Shown here: in pieces, positions 3,001-63,418 of the stretch
Layout of the letters: the number at the start of each line of letters is the position of its first letter
Numbering within the stretch: the stretch's first letter is position 1
Assembly (NCBI RefSeq): GCF_020740795.1
Contig: NC_067294.1
Coordinates: forward strand, 4,836,001 to 4,900,000
Reading direction: 5' to 3'
From: Apus apus
Lineage: Eukaryota > Chordata > Aves > Apodiformes > Apodidae
Length of the DNA: 64,000 nt
Program-made: the position numbers and the translations under genes
The notes under the pieces: model-generated
The model's database searches: none
What the model saw: only the letters and a program-made list of their open reading frames with translations
Told to the model about the DNA's origin: nothing

Positions 3001-6000
3001 TCTGGGGGATTCATGCGAGTCAGAAAATATACACAAATGGCCCCATAAACTGCATCTGTATAGTAGTGGCTTTTAAGTATTTTATTATGAAATACAAGTT
3101 TTCTTGAGGGGTGTGGATATGAATGTGACCAGAGGTCCATCCACAGGTGGGGCTGGCAGGAGCAGCCCTTGCACGCTCTGTGGGCTGCTGCTCCTTAACA
3201 TTTCCAAATAACCTGCACTGTGCTGAGGAAAAGGAGGTGAGGCCACCCAAATATTGCAGGTCGTCATCTGTGAACCACAGCAACACCTCCGATGCAGCTG
3301 TAGAAGTGTAGGTGTGAAGGAAACCCAGAAGAGCCTTGGCTGCTCTGCACAGCTCTATTGCTTTCACAGGTATTTGCTGCTGAAGGAGAGATTTGGGATA
3401 GCTTTTCTTGCTAGTGTTTTGTTAATCAAGAGGCTTTTTTCCTCCCACCTCTCCCATCAGGCCAAAAAGAATCACATCAACAAATTTCCGACTTGACATG
3501 ATTTAGTAAATGTCACTTGTCACAGGGCTGTACAGCTCAGGGAAACGTGAATGAGAAACCAGAGCAAGTATCAGGCCAGGATGTTAGCAGGCCTGGATGG
3601 ATTTGTGGCTCAGCCCCAGGCTCTCTGCAGGCAGCCCCCTCCCCAGCTAGACACCATGTAAAACTTCTGGGGGAAGGTAAGGAAATTACCTGTCATAACA
3701 CACCCGGATACTTTTTGCATGTAAATATACAAGGTTGGTCTTCAGAATAACCAAATTCTGCTTAGCTGGTGGAGTAGGTCCAGCTTTTATCAGGCTGCTG
3801 TCTCCATCACAAAGCACCCAGAGATTTAGCAGGTATGAAAATGTCTGCCTTCCCTGTGGCTTGAAAGGCAGCAGGGGGAAGCTCGTGCCAAGAGCAATTA
3901 GAAAGCACTGGGGTGGGTTGACAACTAACTGCTCATCCTGGAGAGGGACTGTGCAAGTTAGGGGCTTGTGTTGCTCCAGGCAAGTGACACGGACAGGCAC
4001 CAGAAAGGATTGTCAGGTACTCCTGTTCTCGGCTACAAAGAGCCTTGGGAGTGCAAACTATTTATTAAGCAATAAAGTCCATCAAACTGCTTTTAATATT
4101 TTATGTGAGGGGAAATGCATTGATTTCTATTATTTTTAATGAGGCAAATTTTTATACCTCTTTGGTGGAACAGGAAAGGGTTCTATTAAAAAGAAGTGTA
4201 GACACTCCACAATCAATCCCTGCCTGTGTTTGTTATGGATATTGTCACATTGCAAGATGTAAAAATAAGAATCAACAGAGCACTGCCTGTTTTGTCCAAT
4301 TGCTTTATCCTCTAAAAAAAGCCAAAAGGGAGGGGGAGCTTTAGGAATGCTGAAATGACATCAGCTCTTCTCTTGATCAAAATCAAGACTGAACAAGTAA
4401 AAGTATGTGATCTTTCCAAGTGCTGAATGCCAAGTGACCCCATACCAGGAAATTCTGAGAGCTGCACTATAGATTGAACCTGACATTTATCAAGGAGAAC
4501 CAAAGAAACATTCAGTGACTGTTTAGGGCTTGGCTGGAGCTGGTGACCATGAAGAACACTAGGATAGCTGTGCAGCTCAAGAACATGAGAAGAAATCCCA
4601 TTAAATGTGACTAATCAAAGATTTGGAGGAGAATGGTCTAACAATGTCTGCTGCTTGCCACTGTGGCACTGCTTTTCCAGGCTGCTGAATATTTTTGAAA
4701 CTCTGCATCCTGGTCATTTGTGTGTTTGGTGTCTGGCCACAAAAGCACCCCCTGCTTGAGCTTGTTCCGGCTGCTGCCAGCTACCTTCTGGGGGAAAACA
4801 AGCAAGAAAACAAAAAGTCTCTGGTGCAAATTTAGGAGAGCTGGACAAAAATCAGAGGGCTCATCTCTGGACTGCTCTTCAAAAGAAAATTAGTTGAAAG
4901 TAAACGAAAGGCTATCGTCCAAGAACAGCAATGGAAAAACGTCCTACAGACATCCAGTTCAAGCAATTATTTCAACAGCTGGGCAAGTATTGATAGGAGA
5001 ATATGGCACTTTGTGCCTTCCCTCTGGAAGTCTTTACTTCTAACACAAGATGCTTTGCCCCAGGGCCTGACTCCAAGACCAAGCTGTGCAAGGTACCAAA
5101 GCGCCCCAGCTGAACACACCAACAAGGAATTACTTGCTTCTCCATGCCCCACAATAAGCAGAATCATAGGAAGAAGCCATGCTGAAAATCAGAGCTTTCT
5201 ATTGTACAAACAGGAACATAACACTAAAAAAAGGGAACTGTTTTGCACTGGAAGAGCCTCAGCATAATTACCAGAGTCCAGCTCTGCAAACAGGGATGAG
5301 CAAGGTTTGACATCCCACAGCACAAGAGCCCCATGCACCCATCTCACAGCTACCATCTCCTAGGTGCAGGAGCCAGCTCCTAGGAGCAAGGTGCAGCTCC
5401 CATCTTCCCATGGGACTGGAGGGAAATGTCAGGGACAATCCACATCTGTGTACCTCAGGACTTGTAGCTTTCTCCTACTTCTGCTTTGGGTTCACATTTA
5501 AAGAAGCAACACTTCACATCTCCCAGCCAGCACAGCAACTTCACTACCAAATTGCTGTTTAAATGTGAATTCAAAGGAACATTTAAAAATTTCATCAGTG
5601 CCACTTGGACATATGCCTTCAGGCTGTTTATCTTTAAATGAGATGTCACATGTAATTTAGTGGCTATATTAAGTATTGTTTTTCACTTTTAGCTGCATTG
5701 CTGTGGGCAGCCCTGTATCAGCACACACCTTCATTCTTCATTAGGAGAAATAAATGAAAATGGCACCATTTTTCTGAATTAAAGTCCAAATATCTGACAT
5801 GTCAATACCATCTAATGGAACAAAGCACTACAGATTCCTAGAGCAGGTGTTTAATTTGCATGTTATTACTGACAAGGAAGATTAATGCTTTGCTAAATAC
5901 TTATGCTGCAATAAGGAGAAGAGCAGAGGGAGATCATACTTAAAATGGCAAAGGACAAAATACTGTAAGTTCTTTTGCTCCTCAAGTGGTTCTGTCTTTA

Positions 6001-9000
6001 CAGCAGAAAGAAAAACATACTGCTTTGGTATTTCTTTTTAAACTGCTCCCTACACCCTCCCCCAGGGCAGCCTAGGGAATAAGGTCCTCATATTGCAGAA
6101 ATCTATATTTTAATAACAAGGAGGTTCTGTACTAGGTACAATCAGCCCTGACTTCTGGGGATGCAGCAGCTCTCCCTGCCTCTGCAGCCAACCAAGCCTG
6201 GAGAAATCTCTTTCCTTTCTGTGCCTCAGTTTTCTAGCTGTAAAATCGGAGCAATGATGCCAACCTTCTTTTCTAAATTCCTTTAAAGTACAATTTTAAG
6301 GTGCCACATGCAAATCAAGAGTTTTCCCTGTACATTATAATAACAAAAAATTGCTTAGTTGTTTTTTTGTTTTGTTTTTTTGTTTTTTTATTGCAAGCTG
6401 CTGGGAAGGTTTTGCTTCCAAATTTCATGGACAGCTGGACTTCTCCCTCAGAGGGCTCTGAGTTTAGCAGCAGAAGTTAGGCAGGAGAGGTAAACTAGTG
6501 CATCCTGAGCAGCCAGGGGCAGTGGGGAGCTTTGGGAAGCTGGAGCCCCACATTTCCCTGTCAGGCACCAGGACTGGGAGAGCCCCAGCATTACAGGCTC
6601 TGTAATCCCCCTCACAGGCTGGCAGCTCAGTGCAAAGCCCCAAAACCAGCCCAACATTCTATCCACTGCTGTTACTTAAGGATTCAACAGCATGAAATAA
6701 AACACACATCATCCTTTTCTATCACCTCCCCTTATGCTGCAAAGATAGGAGCTTCAGGAGAGCCCTTTCCATCATCTGCAACACCTTAAACACTCCAGAT
6801 GGGCCTGTGGCCATTTTGAGTAGCAAAGCCGATGCCCTGTTCTTCAGTTTCCGTATTTCATCCCTGACATACAAATACCCTCCTCTCTCCATCTGAACAG
6901 CAAGCCAGCAGTGCAGAAGCCTCTGGAGGATTTTGCACATGCTGAGCTCCTGCAGAGCTGAATGTGCCTCATTTTTCCTCAGCTACAGCCTGCAACCACC
7001 CCACACTCCATCCTCAGGGAGAGGAATAGCTGAATTTGCTGGTTTGTTTTCATTACTGGGGATGCTTCTGCGACTGTTCTTTGCCAGGGGTCAATAACAC
7101 TTAGGCTGCTTAAAGTCTATTATGGGTGAGATGCAAGAGATAATTAGACAAGGAATTTCTCCATCTTTAGGATGGGTTTCCTTGCAATGCAGGGAGCTGT
7201 CACAGAGGGCAGGATGTGGTAGTGTCCTAAACACACCAAATGGATCTACAGCTATCCAGGGCAGCTGACTGGCTCCAGGCCCTGGGCAGCCTGGGCAGGA
7301 GAGATATTGCTCACAGTCCTTCCCCAGACCCCTCCTGGGGACAGCTCAGTGTGGTGCTTGTGGCACAGCCACTAGTGAGAGCAGGTAGCTCCACGGTGTC
7401 CAGAGGAGCTCAGAAGCTGTTTTCCACCCTTATGCCTCATCTAGTACATTTTTGGGTTGTGCAACCCAGCAATTCCACAAATTCTCACTACAACCTAAAG
7501 CCAAAGCTGAAGGATGGAAGTAATACTCTTGGTGGGAGAAGGGATGTTACCTGCTGCTCCACTGCCTCAACTCTTCCTTCAGTTGGGAGGACTTGTGTAG
7601 GGAAACAAGGTTCAAACCTCATCCCTGAGGCTTTCTGCCCCTCAAGATGTTTCTTTCTAGACCATAAGCTGGCTTCTGCCAGACTGTTTCCTGCATATGC
7701 ACAGAACAGCAGAATATCACAGGACTCCAAACTGCTTCTGGAATAACAATAATAATACAGAAAAACAAATGCAATTAAATTACAGCTCAGGGCCATTAGC
7801 TTTACAGGAACTCTTTGTTCTGCAAGGACTTGCTGCAAAAATTCAGGAGGATCATCCTGTTCTCAGCTTTGCCATGTGAACTTGGAGCTACTGTCCCAGC
7901 TTCAGAAGAGCTCCTCTGGATTTGTCCCAGCACCATCATTTTGACAAGGATAGTGGGAAACACTTGTTTTCAATTTGCGAAGCTGAACATATTTAAACAC
8001 ACTGGGTATCCCGCTTATGTTCTCCACCACTGACCAAACTGGAAGACCTGTGCATCACCAGGTGTAGGAAAAGCTGCAGGACCCTGCTTATGTAGAAAAT
8101 CTGCCATTTACAGCAAGCACATCACAGATCCACCCAAGCACATGACACCCCCAGGTAATGCTCCCACTTCCTTGGCATTACTGGCTCAGAAGCACCGACC
8201 CAGCTACATCCTAGGCCAGAGCAAACCAGAATCAGTAGGTCAGAGCCTTGCCTTGGCACAAGCCAGCAGAGCTCTGCTGTGTTTGGGCACAATGAAGACA
8301 ACGAAGCTGGAAACAGATCTGGCCCCAGGGAGCTGCACAGGCGTAAAACCAGCAGCAGCAGCCGCAGAGTGCCAGCAGGGTACGTGTTGCAACAGTTTTC
8401 GTTTATCACAAACACACAGCACCGTTACAGATCAAAGTTTAGGTGCAATCCCAGCCTGAGAAATCCAAGGATCATTTCACAGCAGCTCACCAGCCACACC
8501 TGCACTCTGATGTTTTTGGCAGCAGGGTGGGTGAGCAGATCCCTCCCCAGCATGGCATGGGTTTGCTGGAGGAGGAGAAGAGGCTGCCCTATGCAGAGAG
8601 CTCCTCTGCCCTCTGCTGAGGCACCTACCACGGCCATGGTCACGTTTCTCTTTCTCCCATGGCCCTGTTCCTCTGTGGTTCACACCATCACTCACTCACC
8701 CAGTGCTTTATGGATGCATATTAATCAAATGTCCTTTAATTATGGCTTTAGTGATTTAAGGACTCATTTTTCCCTGGTACCCATGTGGATAACATCAGAG
8801 TGATGTGCCTCACCACAATGCACCTTTAGGATTTGTATAGCCTGATTGTCTATTCATTTTCCACCAGAGGACTTTTATTGTTTTGAAGACAAGAAAATAA
8901 AGGCTACTATTCACTGGATGTCAGGTTAATGATTCAGAACAAACTTGCTTGCACTGAGGAAAACGAGTTTAAGGAGCAAAACCAGCATTAATTGCAAATA

Positions 9001-10380
9001 AAAAGGGAGAGTGATGTTCATATTCATTAGCCACCCTGTCCACAGCACAGTGATCCCAGGACCCCTGGGAACCATCACCTCCACCAAGCCAGCACCCTCA
9101 CACCAAGCAAGTCCAGCCCAGCATGCTGGCACACCCCACATCTGTGTGGTCAAGGCTCCCGGTGAAACACAGACCAAATCCCATCTCATAAACCAGACAG
9201 AAGGGAACAAAGCTGCAGGGCCTCATGCATTTCAGGCCAGAGGGGTAGGCTCCAAGTTACCAGCTGCAACAAAGTCCTTCCAAAGCTTTTGAAAGCCTCT
9301 GATTCTCCCTCTGACAGAAGCAGTGTCATTTGGCTGTTTCTACTCTTTCCCATGCCAAACACTTCAAACAAAACAACCAGCCCTTCAGCTTCATGGTATT
9401 TTAAAACCACTCAGTTTTAGGGAGAGTTCCCAGCTTGCAGGAGACACTCGTGGTGGCACCAGCAGCCAGCATCTTCCCCATCCCTGACACCAGTCCCATC
9501 AGAGCAGTTGCTTATGGCTTTTTTGGCAGAGCAAACCACCCACAGTTAGCCTCTCCAACAGCTCTCCTTAAAGACACAGGAGAAGGAGATGCCCACCAGG
9601 AACACAGCTGTTGCTGCACTGGGGCAGGCACAAGGAGCAGCTGAGGACCTGCTCCTTACAGTGGTGCTGTGGGACATCCCTGAGGTCACACACAGCCAGG
9701 TCCACACAGCCCTGCTCTGAATACTTCCCTGTGCGGCCACCAACCAGAGGGACATCTTGCCTCCCCCTCAGGCCATCAGTCACGTGAGGAAAATGCCCAC
9801 CTCACACACCATCCATTTACAAGCCTAGCACCAGCTTTCCAAGCACTCAATGAGTTATTTAAACCCACCAAGCTCTCCTGCAGTTTCTTACATTGAATAC
9901 CTTAATTTAAGAAGTACTTCTTACCTGATACCTGATTCTTGCTCAGCTTAAGGGTACAACTCTGCAGCTCCACAGCCACTTCTGCCCTTCAAAACTTGTA
10001 CTCAAGACAAAAATCTTCAGCATAATGACACAACATGGACTCAGCCTGCAGCCTCACCCACACTAGGCTCCCCTAGTTGTGGGGGCTGCCCCTCACTTAC
10101 ACCCACACACCCCAGGGCCAGGGTGGAGGGCTAAACTCTGTAACGAGCCTGTCCTTCTCTTCAAGCAGCAAAGAGCAAACGGGGTGGAGGCCTTAGGGTT
10201 TTCATGGCCTTGAAGTGATTCATGCAGCTGAGGGCAGCACCTGGAGGCTCCGGCCCTGTCAGCACAGCTTTCCCTAACATGTCCCCGGAAAGGGTGATCC
10301 AGGGGAGTTGTCCCTGATTAGCAGCACCTTACCCCAGCGTTAACGTCGGCATTATGAAAAGCCAGCCTTATGTTCCTGGG
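1..10380. other. intergenic region, no gene identified
   Basis: I see no recognisable gene here. Open frames are short, appear on both strands and resemble no protein family I know. There is a homopolymer A17 at 1173-1189 and a T-rich stretch near 6361-6390. RASGEF1C is the expected neighbour of MAPK9 on this side in other vertebrates. None of its exons was recognised, but exons shorter than about 60 codons could be missed by eye. Confidence 0.5.
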
Positions 10381-10389
10381 GAGGAAACA

Positions 10390-10690
10390 CCAAGTTAACA
10401 ACCAGCTCCTTCAGCTGCTCCTCCGTCACGGCCGGCGTGCCGCGGCCTGCGAGGCCGGCCGGGGACTGCTGTGCTCCGAGTCGTGAGCTGCAGCCCAAAC
10501 CTGTGCGATGGGCTCCTGCTGTACAGCCTAGCACGGAAAATAAATGAAAATAAACCCCCCAACAACCCGTTCATTGAAATGAACGTGCTGGTGTTCTCAG
10601 ACGGCAGCAACAAACGGGCGGTGGCACGGAGCCGCTTCCCGGCGCGGCGGCACCGCAGGCTCAGCAGAAACCTGGAGACAAACAGGGACG
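10390..10690. promoter_or_regulatory. small GC/CpG-rich island, possible promoter or enhancer
   Basis: This stretch is clearly richer in G, C and CpG than its AT-leaning surroundings, especially at 10,425-10,470 and 10,610-10,660. Between the two CpG blocks lies a perfect 18-bp palindrome (10,568-10,585; arms CGTTCATT and AATGAACG around GA). No convincing long coding frame crosses it. It could be the first exon or promoter of an unrecognised transcript, for example a distal 5' exon of RASGEF1C on the minus strand, but nothing in the sequence proves this. Confidence 0.3.
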
Positions 10691-11029
10691 TTTCGGTCTC
10701 TTGGCCCTCATGAAAACAGAGCTAGTTAAAGTGATCAAAAGATTCAGTGTCTCCAACCTGTTTCTACTATCTTGAATGTGTACTTTCAGCAATTGCTTTC
10801 ATGGTTGGGAAGGTAAAATTTCTTTTTCCGAAAGCCCTCCTGGGCTGCAGCACGGACTGGAGCCCCTTCATCATCTCCCCTGCAGCCCCAAGCCACGTGC
10901 AACGCACAGATCCTGCTGCATCGGGAGAATTTCATCCACCCCAGTGACCACCTCATCCCCTGGAGTCGGGGTGTTGGCCAGGGGCCACAAATATAAATAC
11001 CCCATTGCCAAACGTGGTCACTTTGTCTG

Positions 11030-11076
11030 AAGCTAAGTTGGTTCCTTCCCATTCAGGATTCTATGATTCTATGATT
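11030..11076 (+). mobile_element. CR1 LINE 3' end fragment
   Basis: A 'GGTTCCTTCC' block is followed by two copies of the octamer-type repeat ATTCTATG, ending near 11,076. This is the hallmark 3' terminus of avian/reptilian CR1 non-LTR retrotransposons, which typically end in a few 8-bp repeats instead of a poly(A) tail. Only the terminal part is recognisable. The 5' boundary is unclear, as is usual for these heavily 5'-truncated elements. Confidence 0.7.
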
Positions 11077-11079
11077 TGG

Positions 11080-14000
11080 GGTTTGCTGTTGCTGCTGTGT
11101 TTTGAAGTCCTGACACTAACGGAGCCCTTTTGAGGGGGGATCAGACTCCTGGCATCCCTGCAGGGGTGGTGAGTGGCAATTTGTTATCTCCTGGGGGGTG
11201 CAGGACAGAGCGACCAGCGAGCAAATGAGCTGATCTCTGCTGATAATGGTGAAGACCAAGCTCAGGGCAATGAGAGACTCTTTGTTCCACTGGTGAAACA
11301 ACTTCCTCTTAAACTGGCAACATGGAACCAGGTTTTGGCTCTGCCATGCCTCTTCCCCCCAGCAATAACTTATTACCATGGAAACCCTGAAATATCCACA
11401 GCAGCTTTAGGAAGTACTTGTGAATACCATGGCCACAGTTGACACTTGTCTTTTCAGCCGCGGGTCAGGCTTTAACTTCTGGCCAACAAGTTTGATATGT
11501 GGCTGCCTTGGGTCCTTATTTCAGCAGTGTTGCAGAAATATGAGCAGTGCATCTTTAAATAGCCTGATAAGAGCCTGATACAGGCACAATTTATGTTGCC
11601 CAAACGCTGGAGTTCCTTCCAGGTAAAGTGCAGTTTCCCTTCAGAGCACGAGCCGTGGAGCTGATCACTCCTGGTGTGCTGATTTACACCACTGGATTTC
11701 TCCTTGGAGCTCTGAAGTCAGGGTGCTGGTGGGTGCAGGAGACACTTTGGTTGCCTTCAGTCATTTGCACTGTTTTATTAACCTAGAAGAGAAAAAAACC
11801 AGCATGGTAATTAATTCTGCAGCTTTGATTGTGGTTTTACTTTTATTTTATTTATTAGTGGTTATGGACTGAGAAAAATGAAAGATAGCACATGGGCTCT
11901 ATCTAAATAACTCCTTTGCCCACCACTGAGCCTGTGCTATAATCTGCAGGGCTGCCTGCACTCTCAGAGTAAACTCTTTAAAGATTTAATCAAACAAATT
12001 AATCCCCTACCTTGCCTATTCCCTCCTAGCTGTCATTCAGGAGGCAGCTTATTTTCTGATTTCTAAGAGCCCAATTTCTTCTGAGTGCAATTTTAAAATT
12101 AAACTATCCTTTAAAAATGGCCAGATAAAAGATTTGCTCCGAAAACCCCAATTGATATCCTGGCATTCACTGTTTATGAAATTGAGATCCATTTAAATTC
12201 AACACCACACCATGGAGCCCTGCTAAAGGCAGGGGCTGCTCGGAGCTGTTAGAGGGAGTGCTGGGATTCAGCAAGATGGGGCTCTGTCTCCTCCCAGCCC
12301 CACCACTGTCAGCTCTGACCTTGGCCAAGCCATTTAAACACTCTGTGCTGTTTAGTCATCTGTAAAATTAGTATATTATTATTTACCTACCTCCAAGAGA
12401 TACAGTGAAGGTCACTGTTTGCGAAATACTTGGAGACCTTCAGGGGGAACAGACCTTGTGTCATGTCTGCTGGTTTCCCAACAACCTCCTGAGCCAGATC
12501 CTGCAAACCCCATCTTCAGCCAAGCCTGGAGGAAGAGACCCCACTGTCCTGGGGTGAGCTGCTTCTCAACCAGGGCCATCAGCTGAGATGGGTATTTTTT
12601 CAGGTCTAGTAACAAACTACTGCTTCTTGGAAACTAAGCTGAACCACCTCTGCAAACAGTTCTGTGCTTTAAGTCATTATTTGACATATTTTACACTTGA
12701 AATAACAAAATAAGTAGCCTGGTGACTGCCGAAACTCCACTATGTTCATCTTCTATGTGCAAATGAAACTGAAAAACCTTTAGTTGTTTCTGCCAGGTAT
12801 TTCCCCTGGAAACCTGCCCTGTCCTACAGACTGCACCAGTTCTGCTTGGGTCGCTGAACAGCCTCGAGATCTGATGTGCACAGGGTTGTTGAGCCATGTC
12901 TTAGCTTTAACTTTTTACCCAGATGTCTATGATGCTTCTCTGCAAAGAGGTGCTAATGCTGCTTAATACGCAGAAGTGACTAAAAATAGCTTTATACAGA
13001 AAAATTAAATTTTAATTTTTGTGCTTTGGGACCTTTCAGCTTTCTCATTACAGCAGTGCCAGAGAGCAGTGCTGACAGAGAGGAACTGGAGGCAGAGGCC
13101 TCAGGTCTAATGCTGTGCCCAGCTCATCCCTCTCCCCCAGCCTTTTGTCAGCACCAAAATGCTCAAGGGAGCCAGTGCACAGCAAGCAAAGACTTGTCTG
13201 GATCAGGTTTAGAGGCTGGAGCACGAGACAAAAGGAAACAGTTGGGATTAAACCAATATAAAACACCTTCATGCTGCAGAGGCGGGGAATGGCTGGCACT
13301 GAGCTGAGCCCAGCCTGCTGAGTGCTCTTGTTTATCTCCATCCTGCCTGAATAGGGAACTGGCTGCTGGAGGAGCTAGTTCACAGAGCCACTGCCATATC
13401 CTTGTGTTAAAGGCATGCTGACATTTTTAAACCCTGAGAGTTCCTGTTGGGAGAACATTACGCCAATATTACTTATTTTCAGTCCAGCTTCTTCAGAGTG
13501 TGGGCAAGAACAAGAAGACTTGCTAAGTGCAGAAATCCTGACAAAATGGCTAAGACCAAGTGCAGTGACATGGGCACACGCCCACACACGCCTCTCCATC
13601 ACCTGGAGAAGCAGCAGGACACATTTAAAACCCCTCAGCCCAAAGAACCATGCCATGTTTAAGCTCTAACCCTACAAACAGAAAAGCCAATATGAACAGG
13701 GGTAAAGCTACTGCCTGAAGCTTCTGGGCTCAGCTCTGTGATGGGACTGAAGGTGACCTTCTTGCCCCAAGGGATGGGGAAGAGCCATCATCAGGTCCCA
13801 GCTTGGGCACCCCACAGACCCTCATCCCCCAGCACTGTTCCCAGCTTCATGAGGCTGTTGCAGGAGCTGCTTTATCAGCAGCACTGGACTTCCACAGAAA
13901 TCTCTGTATCATTAACCTGAGCTTGGCTTTGAACCAGGGCTTTAAGAGTTTATACAAGTAGTAGCTAAAAGGCATTTAATAGCACACTGCAGCCAATAAG

Positions 14001-17000
14001 CAATGAATTATTTAGAATATTTTACTAAGAATAATTGGTGGTTTTAAAGAGATATTTTTTTCTCCCTCCTCCCTGGGGCCTGTAAATGATTTCATGGTAG
14101 TAACAGTGAGTAACCCAAAACACAAAGCCACCTAATAGCGGCTGCCTGGAATCAGCTAAACCTTGATACAGGGAAGAAACATTATCTCAAATGTGGTTTC
14201 AGTGTATGTTTATTAATTAAATACACAACCACAGACAATAAAGCAAACAAACTGTCAAGAGCCAGGCTCACAGCCCAGATAGTCCGGGCAGGATCATGCA
14301 CACTCTTCCACTTTTTAAATTTATTATAACTCCCCCCAAATGCTACAAAAAAAAAAGTTGTTCCAGTCCCTGCCCCCCTTTCTGAGATCTATTGTGTGCT
14401 CCCCAACATGGTGCCATGTGTAGCCCTCCCCTGGGCACGATGCACAGGGAGCACCAGGGCACAGCCCCTGTGACACTGGCAGAGCCACAGCACGCAGCTA
14501 CTCCCCCAAACTTTTCACTGCTTTTTGTCTTCCTTTTGGCTCATGGAACTGTCACAAAAAGAAACAAACACTTTATTTTTATTTTTCCCCCCCCCCCAAT
14601 TGTTTGTGTGCTTTGTTTTTCTCCCCCTGATCTATAACTGATGTTGGTGGGTGGGTGGGCTGGGAGCTCCAAGACTCTGCTTCGGCACAGGGCTGTTCCC
14701 CAGTGCTCAGGGATGAGCAGCCAACGGCCACAACATCAACATTATCCTCGATGGTGCCATCACCCGGGCATCGAAGGATGCCACAGCCCCGGGGGCAGCT
14801 GCGGGGAGCAGCAAGGCTTTTTCCTGCAGGTTCAGTGCAAGCCACCCAACCTGGATCAAAGAAGTGAAGAGCAATGCTCAACCCATCCACCCCATCCTGG
14901 TCCCGCGCAGCCCAGGGCTGAGTGCAGAGGATGCTCTGCCTGCAGACAGCCCCCTCTCCTGGAAACCCCGCAGCTGCTCTCTGTAAGAACAGCAACATCC
15001 GTTTCTTATTTAGATGCCGTTTCGAGCTGTGAGCACTGCTGGGGGAGGACGGGTACGGGAGAGAAGGGATCAGAGATGTACTGATCAAATCTTTAAGAAA
15101 GAGGTTAAACTCCGGCAAGGCTGCCCCTGGGTTTTGCTCACACGTTTCAGAAATTCATTTTTTCCCAAAACCTGAGGTAAGAGACCTCTCTCTTCCTTCA
15201 AAGCACAGGTGGGAATGAGATGTTTCACTCGGGACACAGAGGAGTCCAGAAGAGAAAGGAAAAACAAACTCACCTCCAAAAATTCAGTTAAAAAATCCTG
15301 AGGATTTTCCAGGTGCCAGTCATTTCCTCTGGGTTGCAAATGTTTCCCCTAATTAATTGTTCTCCACTCCTTGAGTGTCTACTAATGATAAGCTCTGGGC
15401 AAAAGACCTAGAGCAGGGAGCTCTCTATTGATTCCTCTATTGATTTTTTATCTTTTTCCCTGTTGTTATTGTACATGCAAATGGCTGGTAATGACTCAAC
15501 ATTACAACCACTCTCTTCAAGTGACATTTCAGAAATAGGGATTTAATCAGAGGGCCTAACACAGCTGTTTTCCCTCTCAATCCCCCCCCACCCCATGCTC
15601 AGCTGGGATGACCCCATGGTGCTGGCCTTGCCTGAGCCCCCTGGAGCATCCCAGTGGGACAGGGCTCACACACTGAGCAGGGACAGACCTTGGCTCTGTT
15701 CCATCTCCACCACCCTGAGGAAAGGCCAGGGAAGGGGACAGTGAAGACATGCCACCTCTTGATCAAGCCCATCCAAGCTCCAACAGCCTCAGCCCATCAC
15801 CTGATGCGACACTGGACCAAAAAGAAGCAGCCACATCCCTGCCCAGGACAGTTCCCCCTGGTGTTATGCAAACAGCTGAGCAGTCTCTGAGCAAAGGTGT
15901 CGATTAGGTTAATGACATTAAATGAGGGTCATTGTCTCATGCTTTAAGTTGTGTTTGGTAGAAGAGGTGACCCATGACACCCACATCCAGATATGAGAGG
16001 AGGAAAAGAAATGAGTAGGAAGTAGGACAGAGGAAAGAAGGAGCCCTTCAGGGCTGTACCCATCCCTGGAGCAAAGCTCAGATTCCCAGCTCTCCTTAAG
16101 TGGCAGCAAGCTGTAAATGCTGAATGTACCTCACATTAATCTGATGACTCTCCAAGATGTCTAGACTGTTGTTGGAGCTGATAGAAAGCTGGCATCACCC
16201 AGCTCTTGGAGCCTTTCTTGCCTTTTTTCTTTTTTTTTTTTTTTTTTAACTAGTAATAAGATTCTTTTCATATTATGCACTGCTGGAAAGTCCCTTTTGC
16301 GTGCAGACAGCTGCTGTGTTTATAGACACCATCCAAAATGCAGCTAAACACGACAGCTCACTTGAAGCAGAGCAGCAAGCATTTGTTAAAATGATCTTTC
16401 CCAGAGGGACTGCAGGAGCTCTCCACTTTTCTTTATATTTTTCTATTTTAAAGTCAAAGCCTTGTCCTTATGCAAAGATAAAAGCCCCAGTGGAAACACT
16501 GAAAAGATCCTGAAAGGGAAAAAAAAAAATCCTCAGAAAATTAATGACATCCTGAAAATCAGCAGCCCCCACTTATGATAACCAGAAATACAAATGCTGA
16601 ACTAAACAGGTTGGTCCCTGTGAGTCATCGAGGGGCATTTTAAAAGCTCAGGCAAGCTGTCTTGTCTTTAGCCCTGAACAAACCAAATACCTAAAGTCCT
16701 TCCTCGCAGAACTGCAGAGCTGAAATAAAGATGAAGTAGGGAAATGCATCAAAACAGCCTCCAATTAAAAACAAAGTCCATGAGAAAGGCAGTTTGGGAG
16801 AGCTCCTTTTAAGTAGTTTTTCTCCACTTTAATAAGACTGGAGTTACTGTCCAGGAGAAAATGAAGGATGAGTTAATTGGAACATGTTTTTCAAATGAAA
16901 CACCATTCCCCCCCCCCCAGCCCCCCAGGAAACCCTGCACTTACACAGGTAAGCTTTGTTTAAGTCATAAAATATAGCTGGGAAGGGAGAAAACCAGCTT

Positions 17001-20000
17001 AGAGCAGAGCTATTTGCATGTGTTTAGTGAGGATGCTTTTGTTGCAGAGCAGTGCAGATGCTGCCTGTGCTGCAGCCCCAGTTCTAGCTCTGCCTTCATC
17101 CCAGTCCCTTCCACCAACAGCCCATTCCCCCAGCACCAGGTCCGAAGCAGGTTTTAATTCAAAACCAGTGTGGGATGGCAAGAGGAGCAGGGAGCAACTC
17201 TGGGCACACAAGCTCTTTCCTCGGGACCTTTTCCCCATGGCACAGGGCCTGGATCACAGCACAGAGAACGGGGTGGCTGCTCTGGCTGCTCTGCCTCCCC
17301 GAAAATTAACTCCTCCTAAACACACGTTCCCTTGGATATAGCAAAGGACAGAGTGCCCTCTCCTGCTAGGAGCCTCTGTTTTTTTAAATATTCCCCCCTC
17401 GGCAGCCTTTTTGCCGTCTTTAAGTGATGAAAATTAATGTAGGGCTTGCTTTTACAAGATGTTGGTCACGAACTGCCGGCGAGCTTGAGAACATTGCGGG
17501 ATTTTTCCTCGGCAGGCGCTGGGGCTCGGGCAGCACCGGGCGCAGCAGCACAAACCCAGACCCAACCCTGACATCTAGTGGGTGAGCGGCTGAATTCTGC
17601 TCGTCTCTGGAGAGGAAAGGAAAAGACGGTCGCTCGTCCCTGCCCACCCATCCCTGCCCTCTGGCAGCAGCAGCCCCTTACACTTGACAGCAGCTCCCAC
17701 TGGGAAGGACTGAGCCCCCAGCCAGCTCCAGCCCCCGAGTGTTCCAGCTGGGCAGCGGCTGTTCCAGGGACGTAACCCGGCTCCAGCAGGGAAGAGAGTG
17801 ATAACACAAGCAGCTGCAGCCCTGCCATGAGCAAAAAAAAAATCATAGTAAAAACATGCCCATCTCTCTGCTAGGGTCACAGTAACAAGCCTTCAGCTTG
17901 ATCTTTCAAGCCACTTTCAGCCCCCAAAGGCAGGTGCCCTCATTTTCTGTGATGCTGTCTAGCTACAGACCTCCATATTTATGCACAAAACCAGTAGGTT
18001 ATGCAGATGGGGCAATATACAATATTCCCAACAAGCCCCAAAGCTGGAAATGCTCAAGTTCTTATGGCATCCAGCTGTATGTGCCTCTTCCTCCTCTACT
18101 GGGATGTGGCAACATCTTTGTATAAGAATCAGCATCATAAAAAGGCAAACAAAGATTTAAAATTCCATTAGCTTTCAAAGTCATTAATCTTTGCTTTTTA
18201 TGATATTGTTTCTATTTCTCTTTGCAAAAAAGGTTGCTATCAAACAATGCAGGATTGCACTCAGACTCCTGAAGTCTGTGAGCACCAGGAGCCAGAGTCT
18301 GTCCCAGCCAAGAGTGATTTGTCCTAAGCTGCTTTCTGCAGGTGCAGAGAGACCATTTGTTTCCATTTACTGCACATATTCAGTGCAGTAAATAGTTCAT
18401 TCAGAGTTAAAGAGACCAAATGGAATTTTTTTTTTTTTAAAAAAAGGCAAGCACAGGAAACATGTTTTCCTCTTGCAGTTGAATTAAAAATGAGAGATGA
18501 GACTATGGGATTCACTATTTTAACAGCATGAAAGTCCAGCCTGAAAAAAGCAAAACATCAGAATCAAACTTCCAATTTATTAATGGCAAACCAAGATAGC
18601 ATTAAAGTCAATTTTAGATGCAAAACATGTTGACTACAGATAGTTTCATTTAACACAAAAATTAGTTCATGCATTTTTGCATGCATTTACATCTTTCTGT
18701 AAAAATTCAGGCCATGAGAACTGTTTCTTTCGTTGCAACACAGAGAAGGTGTGGAAGTTCAGTCTGAATAAATGTGCACAAGCAAACAACTCATACAAAC
18801 TTATGGGTCTAAACTAGCTCCAAAGTAACTACAAAATATATCAAGTTTCGCAGAGACACTTTAGGACAACTGTATCATTGTTATAAAAAAGAAGTATTTT
18901 CACATAGAGTGTCTGAAATTGTTAAACTTCAGACCCATCCATCCTGGCACCACACACACAGCTCCCCATGTCCCACTGTAGAGAGCAGTATCCTCCCTGC
19001 CCTGTTTCCCCAGACCTGGGCACTCTCCCCAGCCCAATGGCACAGGGGGCTCATGAGCACTGTGTGTGTTTTCAGGTGTCACTTTGTCCAACTGCTCTGG
19101 TCTACACCTGGCAAGGTGCTTTGGCTGCCAGCGTGCACTGCAGGGAGCTGTTCTAACACCCTGAAATAGCCGAGCCTGACATAAGGAGCTGCCCCACAAG
19201 CTGCATGCAGATGACTTCAGTTTCTCCCTTGCTGGTAACTGAGCTCATCTCTACCACCTGGTTGAAGAGGAGAAAGTGCTGATACATCTAACTTACAAAA
19301 ACAGAGTCCAATTACCACCAGCTTTTGTGTAAAAGAAGTTAGGAGCTTTTATCTAGGCAGTAACCTCAAACAGTCACTTTCCTGGGCAGCCTTTTTGGAG
19401 CAGCCACGTCTCATCTGCCTGCAGTGCAAATGTTACCCCACAAAAGGTGAACAGAGGGTACCCTGGTGTCTGCTCTAGAGCTCAGGGGCAGCAAAGGGGA
19501 GCAGGCAGCTGGCACAGGACCAAACCGAGGGAGGCTGCATCCCACAGCTCGCCTGGAAGAACTATTTCAAGCACGTCAAATTTTAACCACACATGGCAGC
19601 ATCTCTGCGCTCCAGGGAGAGGTCATCGCAGAGAATCACAAGCTCCCTCTCAAGTCGGCCCAAAATAAGAAACAATTTTTCAAAACATCCCAGCTCCCTG
19701 CAAGCTGAGAGTCTGGAACAGAGCTCTTCCTCTGCCTCAGGGCAAAAAAATACACAGCTCTCCTCATCACTGACCTTTAGTTTGTCAGGAAACTAATACA
19801 AGCAATCTTCCCTGAGAAGCCGTGGGGAAGGTGAAAGGACTACATGGTGTATGAATAAATGTAAATGCAGAGGGGACTGGGGGAAAAATCAACATTATAT
19901 GGTGCTGTGCCTGATCAAGGCTGTAATTAGGCAAAGAAGCACAGAGTAGATGAGATATCAGCTGTCACACCCCAGAGATGTTACTCTGATGCACCCCATG

Positions 20001-22340
20001 TTCCTAACCTGGAGCTCGGCAGCCACCCTCTAAGAGAAGGGTTATGGGACTAAGAATCACAGGGATAGTTTCTGAGAGATCAGTTTTCACCAGTACTGGC
20101 ACATGCCACAGAAGGATGAGCTGCACAAACTCTTCTGTACACTGAGTCTGTCACCCAGCTGCAGGATGCATAGCAGTCTCCTGCTTGAAGAGACATTTTC
20201 TGCGGCAGGACCCTCTGCATCTCTCCCTCATCTTCGTCCCACCCTGTGCAACAACCTTCAATGCAGATTTTTGTTCACTCATCTCCCTCTTTCCCCTCTG
20301 ACACTGCCAGCTCAGCTCACGCATTAGAGACTGGTCACAGAGGAGCTGTTAGTGGTCCCTGCTACAAAGCCCCCCTGCCAGCACTGACCTCCAGGAACCT
20401 GCGGAGAAGCCACATCCTTCTCATCCCACTAGTTGCAGCACCAGCCCTGAGGCACTTCACGCTGCTCTGAAGCCAGAGCAGCACTAGAAGGGAGTGTGTG
20501 AGGGGAAGCTGGGGATTCCTTTCAGCTATCGTTGCCTTGTCCTTTTATCTGTCATCTTGTCTTTGCACATCAGCTCTGAGATAACAGCAAGGAGACTCAT
20601 TTCCAAAATCCAAACAGAAGAGAGCTCTCCCAAAGGAGTAAGAGCTAGGGCATGTGGCCAGGGCAGTGCCAAGCTGGGAGAGGAAGGTGAAGCAGAAGCA
20701 CTACACACATTCACATGACTTTCCTACAGTCACCTTATCACACAGTTGACTCTACAATGAAGTGGTGGTTTTACATTTTCTGTGAGTGGCCAAGTGTCAA
20801 GAGAAGGAACTGGTCCCTGTCTCAGTGCTCTGGTGCTTGAGGTGTGGGACTTTGGGCTGCTCCTTCCCTGGTCCCTGCCCCATGTGCTGAAAACCTGTGG
20901 CCTACAGAGGGTCTGCCACATGAGCCACTTGAACCACTTCAGCAAGATGCTGGCTTGATGCCCATGACCAGCAGTGACTTGCCTTAAGCACAGCTCTCCA
21001 AATTTCCTGTATCCTGTTGATGTCCTTAATTTCACCCACATCACATTGCTGCAATCCTGTAACCACAAAAGGGAGCAGGAAGGTAGGACTCCTCCCGGTC
21101 CACCCGCTCTCAAACAGGACCCCTGGGCTGTCCTGCTTCTCCATCCTACCTTAGCAAAGGTGACAGACCTGCCCCCTACCAGCCTCCTGACAGGCAGCAA
21201 TGCTGGGATCACTTCCTCACCAGACGAGTGGAGGTGCCTGTAGGAATCAGGGCCAGAGACATTCCCGGTTGTGCAGCAGCAGCTGCTGGTCAGCACAGCT
21301 GCTTCTCTCTCCTTAGCAATGGGGAGAAAACAGATTAATAAATGAAACCAAATCCAGTTCATCAGAAACAACAACCATCTGTTAACAGGCACAGAACTTA
21401 TGTAAAGCACTGGCACTAATACTCCAGGAATATAATTTTCTGGAGGAAAAGTTGAGGTGAGCAGCAACTGCAGTGATACAGCATATCATCCTCAGAAGGC
21501 AAAAGCTTTATTTTTTATTTCATATTATCCTATCTTCCTTTAGATTTCTAAAGCATTCACCTACCTGCCTGCTCATTCCTAAAGATTCTTCTGACTGGAG
21601 TGTAGGTCCATGCAGGGATCTGTCTCAATAACTTCCCAGCCCCAACTTCTGCAAGGAACACATCACAGCCCTGTCAGGTGTGCAGAGTGGAAGCCAAGAG
21701 TGGTTTGTATGTAGAAGACCAGTAAAACAATTTTGTTGCACCATGAGACTGAACTGGTGGAATCAGGGAGAAGAAACAACTTCTTTTTTATTTTAAACCA
21801 TCTCTTATTTTTGAGATGCTCATTAGAACTGCAGCAGTTTGCTCTTCCTTCAGTTGTAATCAAGTTATTTCTGAACTGTGCTTGATTTTCTTGTGAGAAC
21901 AGGCAGCTAAAATAAACACTCCACATTTTCTCACATCAAATAGTTTTTCCAAGAGGAACTGAAATATAGCTGACGAGTGGCCTATTTTTCCTTAACCTTC
22001 AGTTTCTTGTCCTTAAACCATGGTGATGGGAGGATCTGGCCTCCCTCTCTTGCAGCAGGGGGCTGGGCTCCCTCCGAAGCAGACCCAGCAGATGCACCAG
22101 GGATGAGGCAGCAACCCCAGCCAAGATGACATTCATGCCATTTGTCTCATGCCTGACTGGCCGGATACAGGGCAGCAGCAGAGATGGAACTTGTCTCTTG
22201 TCTGATGCGTGCAAAGGGGAACACAAGGAGCCCTGTTCTTGCAGCGAAGCAGGGACCCTGCCCCCCCCCCCAGCCCAGGCCTGGGCTAGTGCTGCAGCTC
22301 TCAACTCTTCAGCCCAGGGATGAAACTAGTTAAGGGTGGA
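11080..22340. other. intergenic region, no gene identified
   Basis: This is noncoding as far as can be read. It contains homopolymer runs: C-run near 14,587, T-run 16,223-16,248, C-runs near 16,911 and 22,261. Two modestly GC-richer patches lie near 14,640-15,060 and 17,460-17,790. I looked for PH and RhoGAP domain exons that could belong to the ARHGAP-like gene at 22.3-24.5 kb and did not recognise any. A small exon could still be missed. Confidence 0.45.
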
Positions 22341-22344
22341 CAGG

Positions 22345-22352
22345 TATAAAAC
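22345..22352 (+). promoter_or_regulatory. TATA-like box for the ARHGAP-tail gene
   Basis: TATAAAAC lies about 397 bp upstream of the ATG at 22,742. A start site about 30 bp downstream (near 22,375) would give a 5' leader of roughly 370 nt that includes a GC-rich block at 22,450-22,490. A TATA-like 8-mer arises by chance often enough that this is suggestive only. It is supported by its orientation and by the lack of a good splice acceptor before exon 1. Confidence 0.4.
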
Positions 22353-22741
22353 GGGCCACCCACAGGTGTCAGTCAAACTACACTGAACAGATCGAGGGTA
22401 GGAAATCAGGAGCAGTTCCTGGGATGAGGAGGAACCAGCCATGACAAGACAGGCAGCGGGCGGGCGCGGCGGCTCCGGAGCTCAACCCGCTGCCTCCAAA
22501 AAGCAAAGCTGAAACAAGATCCGGGCTGAAACAAGTCCAGCAAAATGGACTATTTCCAACTATTTCAAAAAGCTTCAAACAGCTGTGGGAAGAAAACTCT
22601 CACAGTCCCTGACAAGGCAGAGCCAGACAGACCCGAAAACAAGGTCTCCTCTAAAACAGAAAAGGCATTGAGTCTCTGACAGCAGCCAGAGGGCCCAGGG
22701 GTGCCGGCTGGGCATGCTCACCAGGATCCTACTGCTCAACC

Positions 22742-22995
22742 ATGTTTGATGAAAATCCTCCTTCAAGACTTTTGACAAGACATGCCCACCCAGAAGACCC
22801 TCAAGAAACCAGCGCAGCTCTAAGTCCTGTTTTGGGGGATCAGGAAAACATGGGCCACATCCCAGTGGACAACAGCACCAGCTCCGCTCCCTCCAGTGCC
22901 TCGGCAGCAGAACCAACCTCCCCCCAGCACCACCTGGCCCAGCTGAGGGTGCTGATGTCCCGGCAGAAGGCAGAGTATGAATCCAAAATTGCAAG
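22742..22995 (+). CDS. ARHGAP-tail gene, coding exon 1
   Basis: The 254 coding nt end in phase 2 at AG|GTAAAG. The reading frame opens after a TAA at 22,652. Possible acceptors between that stop and the ATG (for example AG at 22,681-22,682) have poor polypyrimidine tracts, so I favour a first exon starting at the ATG. Several upstream ATGs precede it: 22,424, 22,441, 22,545 (44 codons) and 22,714. The last frame overlaps the main start. They would lower translation from 22,742, or mean that the real start is elsewhere. Confidence 0.6.
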
Positions 22996-24133
22996 GTAAA
23001 GGATTTTTACAACTCTGAGGCTGCAGGGAAGGCATCTCTTCCTACTGTACACACCTCCTGCAGGGTCCTCACCTGCGACTAGGGTCTGTGGATGCTGCTG
23101 CCTGATACCACTGTGAATGTCACCCAGGATCCAGCATTACAGGACTGGCAATTAGCTAATTACTGAATAATCAGCTGTTATTCAGGTATTTTAAATAATT
23201 TTCATGTGAGATGCTTGAGAAACTCCAGAGCATCTCTAATTTTTTTTGCAGGGATGTGCACAGCTCTTGAAAAGCTCTGGTTTATTGTGTGTTTTTCTCC
23301 TTTGCCTTAATCCAGTATTAAACTTTTCTCTGTGGAAAAACATGCAGCCTTCTCAGCAAGTCATTATTCTTTACAAATTGCAAGTCATGAATTTTAACAA
23401 CTTGGAGGGAAGTGTTCATAAGTATTCTCCCGATTTCTAAGATTAGAAATTCAATAGAGATTTAGCCACAGCTTGCCATCAAGGGAAAAAAGCAGATATA
23501 TTTCCAGGCTCTACCTTTCAAATACTGCTGCTTTTCTCATGTCGTTGAAAGGAAAGAACATTTTAAATACAATATTGTTCATCAGTTACAAGTATGTTGT
23601 GCAAATTGACTATTTGACTAAATCATAAAATACCTCAACATGGATCAGGTGCAACAGATGGCAAGTGGGTAATGCTGAGTTACACTTTACCTTGAACACT
23701 ATGTAAAGAAAAAGAATCATTTGATCTTTAATTTCTGGAAGTATTCACTAATTTCTTCTGTGTAAAAAAAGCTCTTCCTAGGTTTTGGGTCTTTTTTCTT
23801 TTTAATCTCTTTTCTGTATTCTGCTGATGTTTTTCCTTGCGGTTCAAGGGAACTGAAATATAAGCAGAATCTTCACTGTTTCCTAAAATATTTTGCATTG
23901 CCATTTGCTGTTGGACTGTAGTGTTCCACTACGAAAAAACCCAACCCCAAAACAGACTCCTTTGGCCATCTGGTTATTTATATTATTTCAAATTTGGGTA
24001 ACTAAATATGGCAGCTTTTAATATGTAACATCATACATTGGAAAAATATTGGGGATGCCAATACTTGTATTGATGGGAACATATGTGAAGACCAGCTTTA
24101 AAAAAGCCTATAGCTTGATTAGGAAAGGGGCAG

Positions 24134-24165
<32 letters not shown>

Positions 24166-24412
24166 CGGAAATCCTGTAATTTACAGTGTGTGTCTTTCCA
24201 ACAGCTTGGAGCAGAGGAACAGGGAACTGCAGCTGGAGATTAAGGACATGCATTCGAAACTGGGACAGCAGAGAAGGTGGCACAGGCTGGCAGAGATGAA
24301 AATGCAAAATGCAGAGAGAGCAAAGGAAGATGCAGAGAGGAGAAATGAAATGCTCCAAAAAGAAATGGAAGAGTTTTTTGAAACCTTTGGGGAAATTAAC
24401 AGATGGAAATAA
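22742..24412 (+). CDS. ARHGAP22/24/25-type C-terminal coiled-coil protein (tail-only, ~153 aa), spliced
   Basis: Two exons join as 22,742-22,995 and 24,205-24,412 (462 nt including stop). The donor is AG|GTAAAG and the acceptor CCAACAG. The first about 75 residues are Ser/Pro/Ala-rich and low in complexity. The last about 75 form a charged coiled coil with the blocks EYESKIA-S-LEQRN, EMKMQNAERAKEDAE and LQKEMEEFFETFGE. From memory, the ARHGAP24 (FilGAP) C-terminus has nearly the same blocks: YEARIK-S-LEQRN, RNAERAKEDAEKRN and LQKEMEQFFSTFGE. In FilGAP this coil mediates self-association and lies in the region reported to bind filamin A. Full-length relatives have PH and RhoGAP domains of over 350 residues; none was found here. 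An in-frame stop at 22,652 lies upstream of the ATG, which has A at -3. The protein could be a free-standing dimerisation or dominant-negative tail, or the 3' end of a longer gene. Family assignment is strong; gene extent is uncertain. Confidence 0.7.
24135..24165 (+). repeat. uninterrupted G31 tract in the ARHGAP-tail intron
   Basis: Thirty-one consecutive G residues end 39 nt before the last-exon acceptor. In the sense transcript this forms a strong G-quadruplex candidate close to the expected branch-point region. Runs this long are unstable and are often miscounted in assemblies. Confidence 0.95.
24205..24412 (+). CDS. ARHGAP-tail gene, last coding exon (coiled coil)
   Basis: The 208 nt run from the acceptor TCTTTCCAACAG to TAA at 24,410. 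They encode Leu-Glu-Gln-Arg-Asn followed by about 60 residues of strongly charged helix ending FGEINRWK. The junction codon is Ser (AG|C), matching the Ser before LEQRN in ARHGAP24. The ARHGAP24 extension after FGEL (ending TIWIQ, from memory) is absent and replaced by four unrelated residues. Confidence 0.75.
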
Positions 24413-24504
24413 ACAGGACGGTGTTCAGTTTGAAGTTGAGCTAAACTGTAGGAGGGAGAAAGGCCCCATCCCCATTTCAGCACAGACTCCCACTGCAGAG
24501 GTGA

Positions 24505-24510
24505 AATAAA
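24505..24510 (+). terminator. polyadenylation signal of the ARHGAP-tail gene
   Basis: AATAAA lies 93 nt after the stop codon at 24,412 on the same strand. It would give a very short 3' UTR and end the transcript near 24,525-24,535. Confidence 0.5.

Positions 24511-32867: not shown

Positions 32868-50527
<17,660 letters not shown>

Positions 50528-57288: not shown

Positions 57289-63418
<6,130 letters not shown>

Follow-up and report, generated by a model that had tools for sequence, protein, structure and literature searches.

Two coiled-coil exons beside MAPK9

The window, the whole 64,000-nucleotide stretch of DNA analysed here (C14:4836001-4900000 of a 1.10 Gb genome), holds two forward-strand exons that read as the C-terminal tail of an ARHGAP22/24/25-type protein, lying tail to tail with MAPK9 and followed by a GFPT gene. 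By window position, the features are:

22742..22995, forward strand: penultimate exon as read, with an ATG, a Ser/Pro/Thr-rich linker of about 60 aa and then the start of the coiled coil
22996..24204, forward strand: last intron, phase 2 (AG/C)
24205..24412, forward strand: last exon, with the coiled coil and stop codon TAA at 24410-24412
24302..24397, forward strand: best-kept part of the coil, 32 codons
24408..24510, forward strand: AATAAA signals, one overlapping the stop at 24408 and a second at 24505
32901..33053, reverse strand: region of the last MAPK9 coding exon, the gene being convergent with the coil exons
36093..36284, reverse strand: MAPK9 kinase exon, matching the solved structure of MAPK9 better than those of MAPK10 and MAPK8
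58505..62230, reverse strand: GFPT gene (glutamine-fructose-6-phosphate aminotransferase), with SIS domains

Joined in frame, 22742-22995 and 24205-24412 encode 153 aa and a stop codon across the junction of AAG/GTAAAG with TTTCCAACAG/C; the frame holds no stop and no frameshift. The two-exon frame of about 153 aa with intact splice sites proposed in the initial annotation was thus reproduced in its coordinates, its GT-AG ends and its open frame. Scored with a simple splice matrix, the donor (AAG/GTAAAG) falls within the top 1.6% of 2748 GT on the forward strand of the window and the acceptor (TGTGTGTCTTTCCAACAG/C) within the top 6.2% of 4702 AG. The frame of the penultimate exon is open back only to 22655 and measures 341 nt, versus 1139, 959 and 596 nt in ARHGAP24, ARHGAP22 and ARHGAP25 of the same genome, respectively, and the putative start at ATG 22742 may be internal to a longer exon. 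For the 68 aa of the last exon, an AlphaFold model built without an alignment predicts one helix spanning residues 2-67 (mean pLDDT 95), which says little more than that this sequence is helical in character.

Also observed was a run of 31 G at 24135-24165, 39 bases before the last-exon acceptor, representing a possible G-quadruplex or assembly artefact. A CpG island is absent at the first tail exon (CpG o/e 0.28 over 22000-22750). Further upstream, 10251-11000 is moderately CpG-rich (o/e 0.63-0.78) and carries no Pfam match; a stricter scan did not flag this stretch, which might act as an upstream promoter for the tail. Nothing was returned by a bacterial-type promoter scan of 22000-22800, whose model is unsuited to this organism, and an Rfam scan of the window gave zero matches.

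Family placement and genomic neighbourhood

Human ARHGAP22, ARHGAP24 and ARHGAP25 proteins were compared first, and same-genome sequences were used afterwards. Given that Pfam and a solved-structure library gave only sub-threshold matches to the tail and did not recognise it, family placement rests on these human proteins and then on the swift's own genome. The last exon is 61.5% identical over 65 aa to human ARHGAP24 (E 7e-20, with matches of the reversed window at E 0.11-0.61), 42% over 64 aa to ARHGAP22 and 28% over 64 aa to ARHGAP25, bearing out the ARHGAP24-type C-terminal coiled coil named in the initial annotation. Across the best-kept part of the coil, 26 of the 32 residues are identical and 31 positive relative to human ARHGAP24. 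A search of the genome with the tail (E up to 1; 5 candidates scored) identified four places, comprising the tail itself, ARHGAP24 (58%; C5:41819314), ARHGAP22 (45%; C5:19001575) and, weakly, ARHGAP25 (26%, E 0.09; C27:4671298), with the human relatives mapped to the latter three loci, each of which possesses GAP exons just upstream of its tail. Additional searches of bacterial and archaeal genomes gave 62 pattern matches and 0 confirmed relatives, and four short matches of 21 aa in viral contigs were judged to be chance.

The first exon alone is weakly similar to the three relatives (E 0.002, 0.07 and 0.17; family profile 0.15), and a manual, ungapped count of its last 22 residues found 8 identical to ARHGAP24 of this genome. 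Its position, frame and splice phase nevertheless match those of the relatives; the place and phase 2 of the last intron are common to all four genes (4/4, same genome). Of 21 residues that all three human relatives share, the tail has lost 7, and the core of the coil is weaker, with hydrophobic residues at 11 of 19 core positions as against 13 of 19.

With ARHGAP24 (FilGAP), the tail shares its coil sequence, the place and phase of its last intron, a neighbouring JNK gene, and three of the four published filamin contacts compared (F726, T728 and G730), but differs in having no detected PH or RhoGAP domain, in a linker of about 60 aa, and in its locus, ARHGAP24 being on contig C5. ARHGAP22 resembles it in coil, intron phase and a tail-to-tail arrangement with a JNK gene (MAPK8), but has GAP exons and a coil 42% identical to the tail (human sequence). 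ARHGAP25 likewise shares coil and intron phase and is linked to the other GFPT as the tail is to a GFPT; it differs in possessing GAP exons and an extra linker intron, and in a coil identity of 26-28%. p68RacGAP, a PH-less isoform of ARHGAP22 (PMC4059726), is also a shortened family product, but one made by a gene that keeps its GAP domain, whereas the window gene itself shows no head.

Genomic neighbours, not used in the initial annotation, give the origin of the gene. We take 32901..33053 to encode the C-terminus of MAPK9, and the gene at 58505..62230 is called GFPT2 only from gene order. JNK exons were found at three places in all genome-wide (MAPK8, MAPK9 and MAPK10). The tail (C14:4860206, +) and MAPK9 (C14:4872105, -) are convergent, with the MAPK9 exon 11.7 kb away, as are ARHGAP22 (C5:19001575, +) and MAPK8 (C5:19015469, -) at 13.7 kb; ARHGAP24 and MAPK10 (C5:41958294) lie 139 kb apart on the same strand, and ARHGAP25 lies 244 kb from the other GFPT (C27:4915632). 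The same-strand ARHGAP24/MAPK10 pair does not fit the simplest paralogon picture and, set against the convergent MAPK8 and MAPK9 pairs, may reflect an inversion. Contig C5 holds both the ARHGAP24 and the ARHGAP22 blocks, perhaps through a chromosome fusion in this species; in chicken, these blocks lie on separate chromosomes.

Upstream, on the other strand, a RasGEF match at C14:4704873-4705067 is probably RASGEF1C, and a CpG island between this match and the tail (C14:4758401-4759700) is perhaps its promoter. One perfect match to a CR1-like end motif was also found, in keeping with a bird genome. The human RASGEF1C-MAPK9-GFPT2 region is in band 5q35. A human deletion table gives the order RNF130, RASGEF1C, MAPK9, GFPT2, CNOT6, with no ARHGAP between them (PMC6542989). 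MAPK8, MAPK9 and MAPK10 have been assigned to a 2R paralogon on human chromosomes 4, 5, 8 and 10 that extends in part to chromosomes 2 and 7 (PMC2453138), and MAPK8 and ARHGAP22 are listed as neighbours in human 10q11.22-11.23 (PMC7217839).

Given that JNK or GFPT genes neighbour ARHGAP22, ARHGAP24 and ARHGAP25 as well as the tail, the tail occupies the fourth slot of this arrangement. Together, last-exon similarity, the place and phase of the intron, and the four-fold neighbourhood make it very probable that the two exons descend from the fourth 2R duplicate (ohnolog) of the ARHGAP22/24/25 family. Among open-licence literature, no title on a fourth family member was found, and a search of the main text of PMC3238295 found no ARHGAP name.

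Search for a PH/RhoGAP head

The initial annotation described the tail as free-standing, with no catalytic domain upstream in the window, and searches by Pfam, tblastn and family profile extending to 152.7 kb upstream agree in finding none above background. PH and RhoGAP were not found by Pfam in the three forward frames of 1-24500 at E up to 1; on the reverse strand, coverage comprised 1-15002 in three frames and 14901-24500 in one of three. Using three human proteins and ten own-genome pieces as queries, tblastn of C14:4706001-4900000 (which contains no N) returned both tail exons at a cut-off of E 0.1, along with a match in the poly-G stretch (E 0.026) and one of a Ser-rich stretch at 19593-19772 to the ARHGAP22 linker (about 0.06-0.07); reversed sequence gave one match, at 0.050. 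Over 9929 segments, the family profile ranked the tail, then its first exon (0.15), then nothing better than 8. No PH or RhoGAP exon rose above background in the 152.7 kb upstream, in six-frame searches of the window and the 130 kb before it, a scan that reaches to about 1 kb from the RasGEF match.

Genome-wide, 150 of 194 candidates for PF00620 were scored, with no forward-strand match on the contig of the window. The ARHGAP24 GAP exon retrieved the heads of ARHGAP24, ARHGAP22 and ARHGAP25 and a weak match on contig C17 (E 6e-4), and the ARHGAP25 GAP exon only the three family heads. By these two GAP-exon searches the genome holds four family tails and three heads, again consistent with a free-standing tail. 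The C17 match was rejected as a fourth family head: with 37-57% across three GAP exons, it is part of a different RhoGAP gene, which we take to be BCR/ABR-like.

Distances from the last whole GAP exon to the tail exon are 7.7, 7.3 and 2.6 kb in the relatives. In ARHGAP24 and ARHGAP22 a single exon holds both the end of the GAP domain and the start of the coil, within the 1139 and 959 nt frames given above, whereas the corresponding frame of the tail is short. Two upstream forward-strand stretches resemble the family linker. At 3810-3851, QSTQRFSRYENVCL resembles the linker motif QRLSTYDNV (score 24.7 versus a maximum of 23.7 in 60 resamples), and the Ser-rich 19593-19772, 3 kb before the first tail exon, is 33% identical over 60 aa to the ARHGAP22 linker of this genome. 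Both were rejected as lost linker exons, being near background and neither accompanied by GAP sequence.

In a sensitivity control, all 129 of 129 intact PH/GAP pieces of 30-50 aa were recovered at E<=0.05 with an overlap of more than half, or 82 of 129 under a stricter rule confining the alignment to the inserted piece. In a drift control, own-genome GAP pieces were recovered in 96, 72, 42, 9 and 1 of 120 trials at d 0, 0.1, 0.2, 0.3 and 0.4, respectively; this control is imperfect, as undrifted pieces already reached only 96/120 and the short exon starts of ARHGAP22 and ARHGAP25 were never recovered. From these losses, an old or deleted head would escape detection. Since some drifted pieces are recovered, the loss of a head by drift would probably date back further than the open tail could have survived under neutrality. 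By the features tested, the window gene is not a RhoGAP.

Constraint, fate and proposed action of the tail

We examined constraint over 86 coil codons, which align without a stop or a gap, at sites where ARHGAP24 equals ARHGAP22, with the same rule applied to the sister genes; the tests assume independent sites and take ARHGAP22 as outgroup, and the counts are small. Changed sites at codon positions 1, 2 and 3 numbered 18/58, 16/70 and 18/43 in the window gene, 6/46, 4/58 and 10/35 in ARHGAP24, and 15/55, 7/61 and 21/46 in ARHGAP22. In the window gene, change was less frequent at position 2 than at position 3 (16/70 versus 18/43, p 0.037), yet its rate at position 2 was about 2.5-fold that of the sisters (16/70 versus 11/119, p 0.017). 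Third positions show no excess of change on the tail branch (p 0.46 and 0.18 for the halves of the last exon, as p values without site totals). We read these counts as coding constraint that is relaxed on the tail branch, given the excess of second-position change, yet present, given that second positions remain less changed than third ones. The statement in the initial annotation that conservation suggests selection is accordingly upheld by the first comparison and tempered by the second, as the coil has not been held as firmly as in its sisters.

Were all change on the branch (d 0.30) neutral, the modelled chance of neither a stop nor a frameshift would be 0.075 x 0.005, with an indel ratio of 0.08 assumed. 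The modelled probability of an intact two-exon frame under neutrality is 0.07 at d 0.05 and 0.006 at d 0.1, and that of exon 2 alone 0.22 at d 0.05. Birds substitute at a rate near 2e-9 per site per year, at which d 0.1 corresponds to about 50 million years. Given this low neutral survival of the frame, constraint, if it has ended, ended recently. Of the 6 changes within the best-kept half of the last exon, 5 are conservative, and the probability of at most 1 radical change is 0.056 at d 0.1.

The best overall explanation, to which we give a probability of roughly 0.5, is a headless fourth ohnolog beside MAPK9 whose tail has been kept as a small coiled-coil protein. A serious alternative, at something short of even odds, is that the same ohnolog is a late relic, unexpressed or unused, whose exons are by chance unbroken, as they might be if the head had been deleted recently. 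The relaxed codon pattern, the lost core residues of the coil, the short penultimate frame and the lack of a CpG island at the first exon are all consistent with such a relic, as are the neutral survival probabilities of 0.07 and 0.22 at d 0.05; conversely, the frame lacks any stop or frameshift, the GT-AG ends are kept, and the few changes in the best-kept half are mostly conservative. A head without a trace implies either long decay, which is hard to square with the open tail, or a clean deletion, and if that deletion were recent the open frame would be uninformative.

Very improbable is a later partial copy of ARHGAP24, comprising only the last two exons, inserted beside MAPK9. This would explain the missing head, and ARHGAP24 is indeed the closest relative (39/64 identical residues, 11 common to ARHGAP24 only, human sequences). 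However, ARHGAP24 and ARHGAP22 themselves share 37/64 (human sequences), so that such a copy would be very old; ARHGAP24 tails from this genome and from human remain 92.6% identical over 81 aa, and it would take chance to place the insertion beside MAPK9 and GFPT, the matching paralogon block. An ordinary full-length fourth RhoGAP with PH/RhoGAP exons further upstream or missed is strongly disfavoured: introns can be long in this family, the linker is too variable for detection by similarity, and the stretches at 3810 and 19593-19772 are linker-like, but 152.7 kb reaching almost to the RasGEF match hold no PH or RhoGAP exon above background, two family GAP exons find three heads rather than four, the last whole GAP exon of relatives is only 2.6-7.7 kb away, and the exon that carries the GAP end in ARHGAP24 and ARHGAP22 is here cut short.

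Between the small protein pairing with ARHGAP24 and the late relic, the former is slightly favoured, and we put the tail being still translated and used at about an even chance. On the reading of a retained small protein, the gene would have lost its head and kept its tail at least for a time, leaving a product of about 150 aa that begins disordered and ends in a coiled coil. Such a protein, if made, would most likely act by pairing of its coil with itself or with ARHGAP24 (FilGAP). A mixed dimer would gain a partner with neither GAP activity nor a working filamin strand, which might weaken the filamin targeting of FilGAP.

According to PMC2654154, residues 649-725 of FilGAP dimerise and 726-734 form the minimum filamin site; on its own, the coiled coil (649-729) fails to bind FLNa, and V734Y perturbs binding. 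PMC4059726 reports that ARHGAP22 is monomeric in cells and that it does not bind FLNa, and its coil alone goes to punctate, Rab11-positive structures. At the filamin strand the tail keeps F726, T728 and G730, but V734 is replaced by R, followed by W, K and the stop, and a filamin-binding strand of the FilGAP kind is not recognisable by sequence. The pairing with filamin suggested in the initial annotation fails at this point, judged by the contacts published in PMC2654154, as R at 734 and a chain that ends three residues later make direct competition for filamin by the window protein unlikely. Poisoning of FilGAP through mixed dimers we regard as doubtful, and that a stand-alone coiled-coil ohnolog serves as a natural poison subunit of FilGAP dimers, tuning the control of Rac, is on present reading of the sequence improbable.

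The locus points to a missing fourth member of a well-studied family of Rac regulators, one that completes the four-fold MAPK8/MAPK9/MAPK10 block, and is a candidate for a duplicate that lost its enzyme and kept its dimerisation tail. If the poison-subunit reading is true, gene decay and not alternative splicing would have produced a regulator, for which the human deletion table lists no counterpart beside MAPK9. Expression would make the tail a built-in dominant-negative of FilGAP; an unexpressed tail would instead help to date the loss of the ohnolog.
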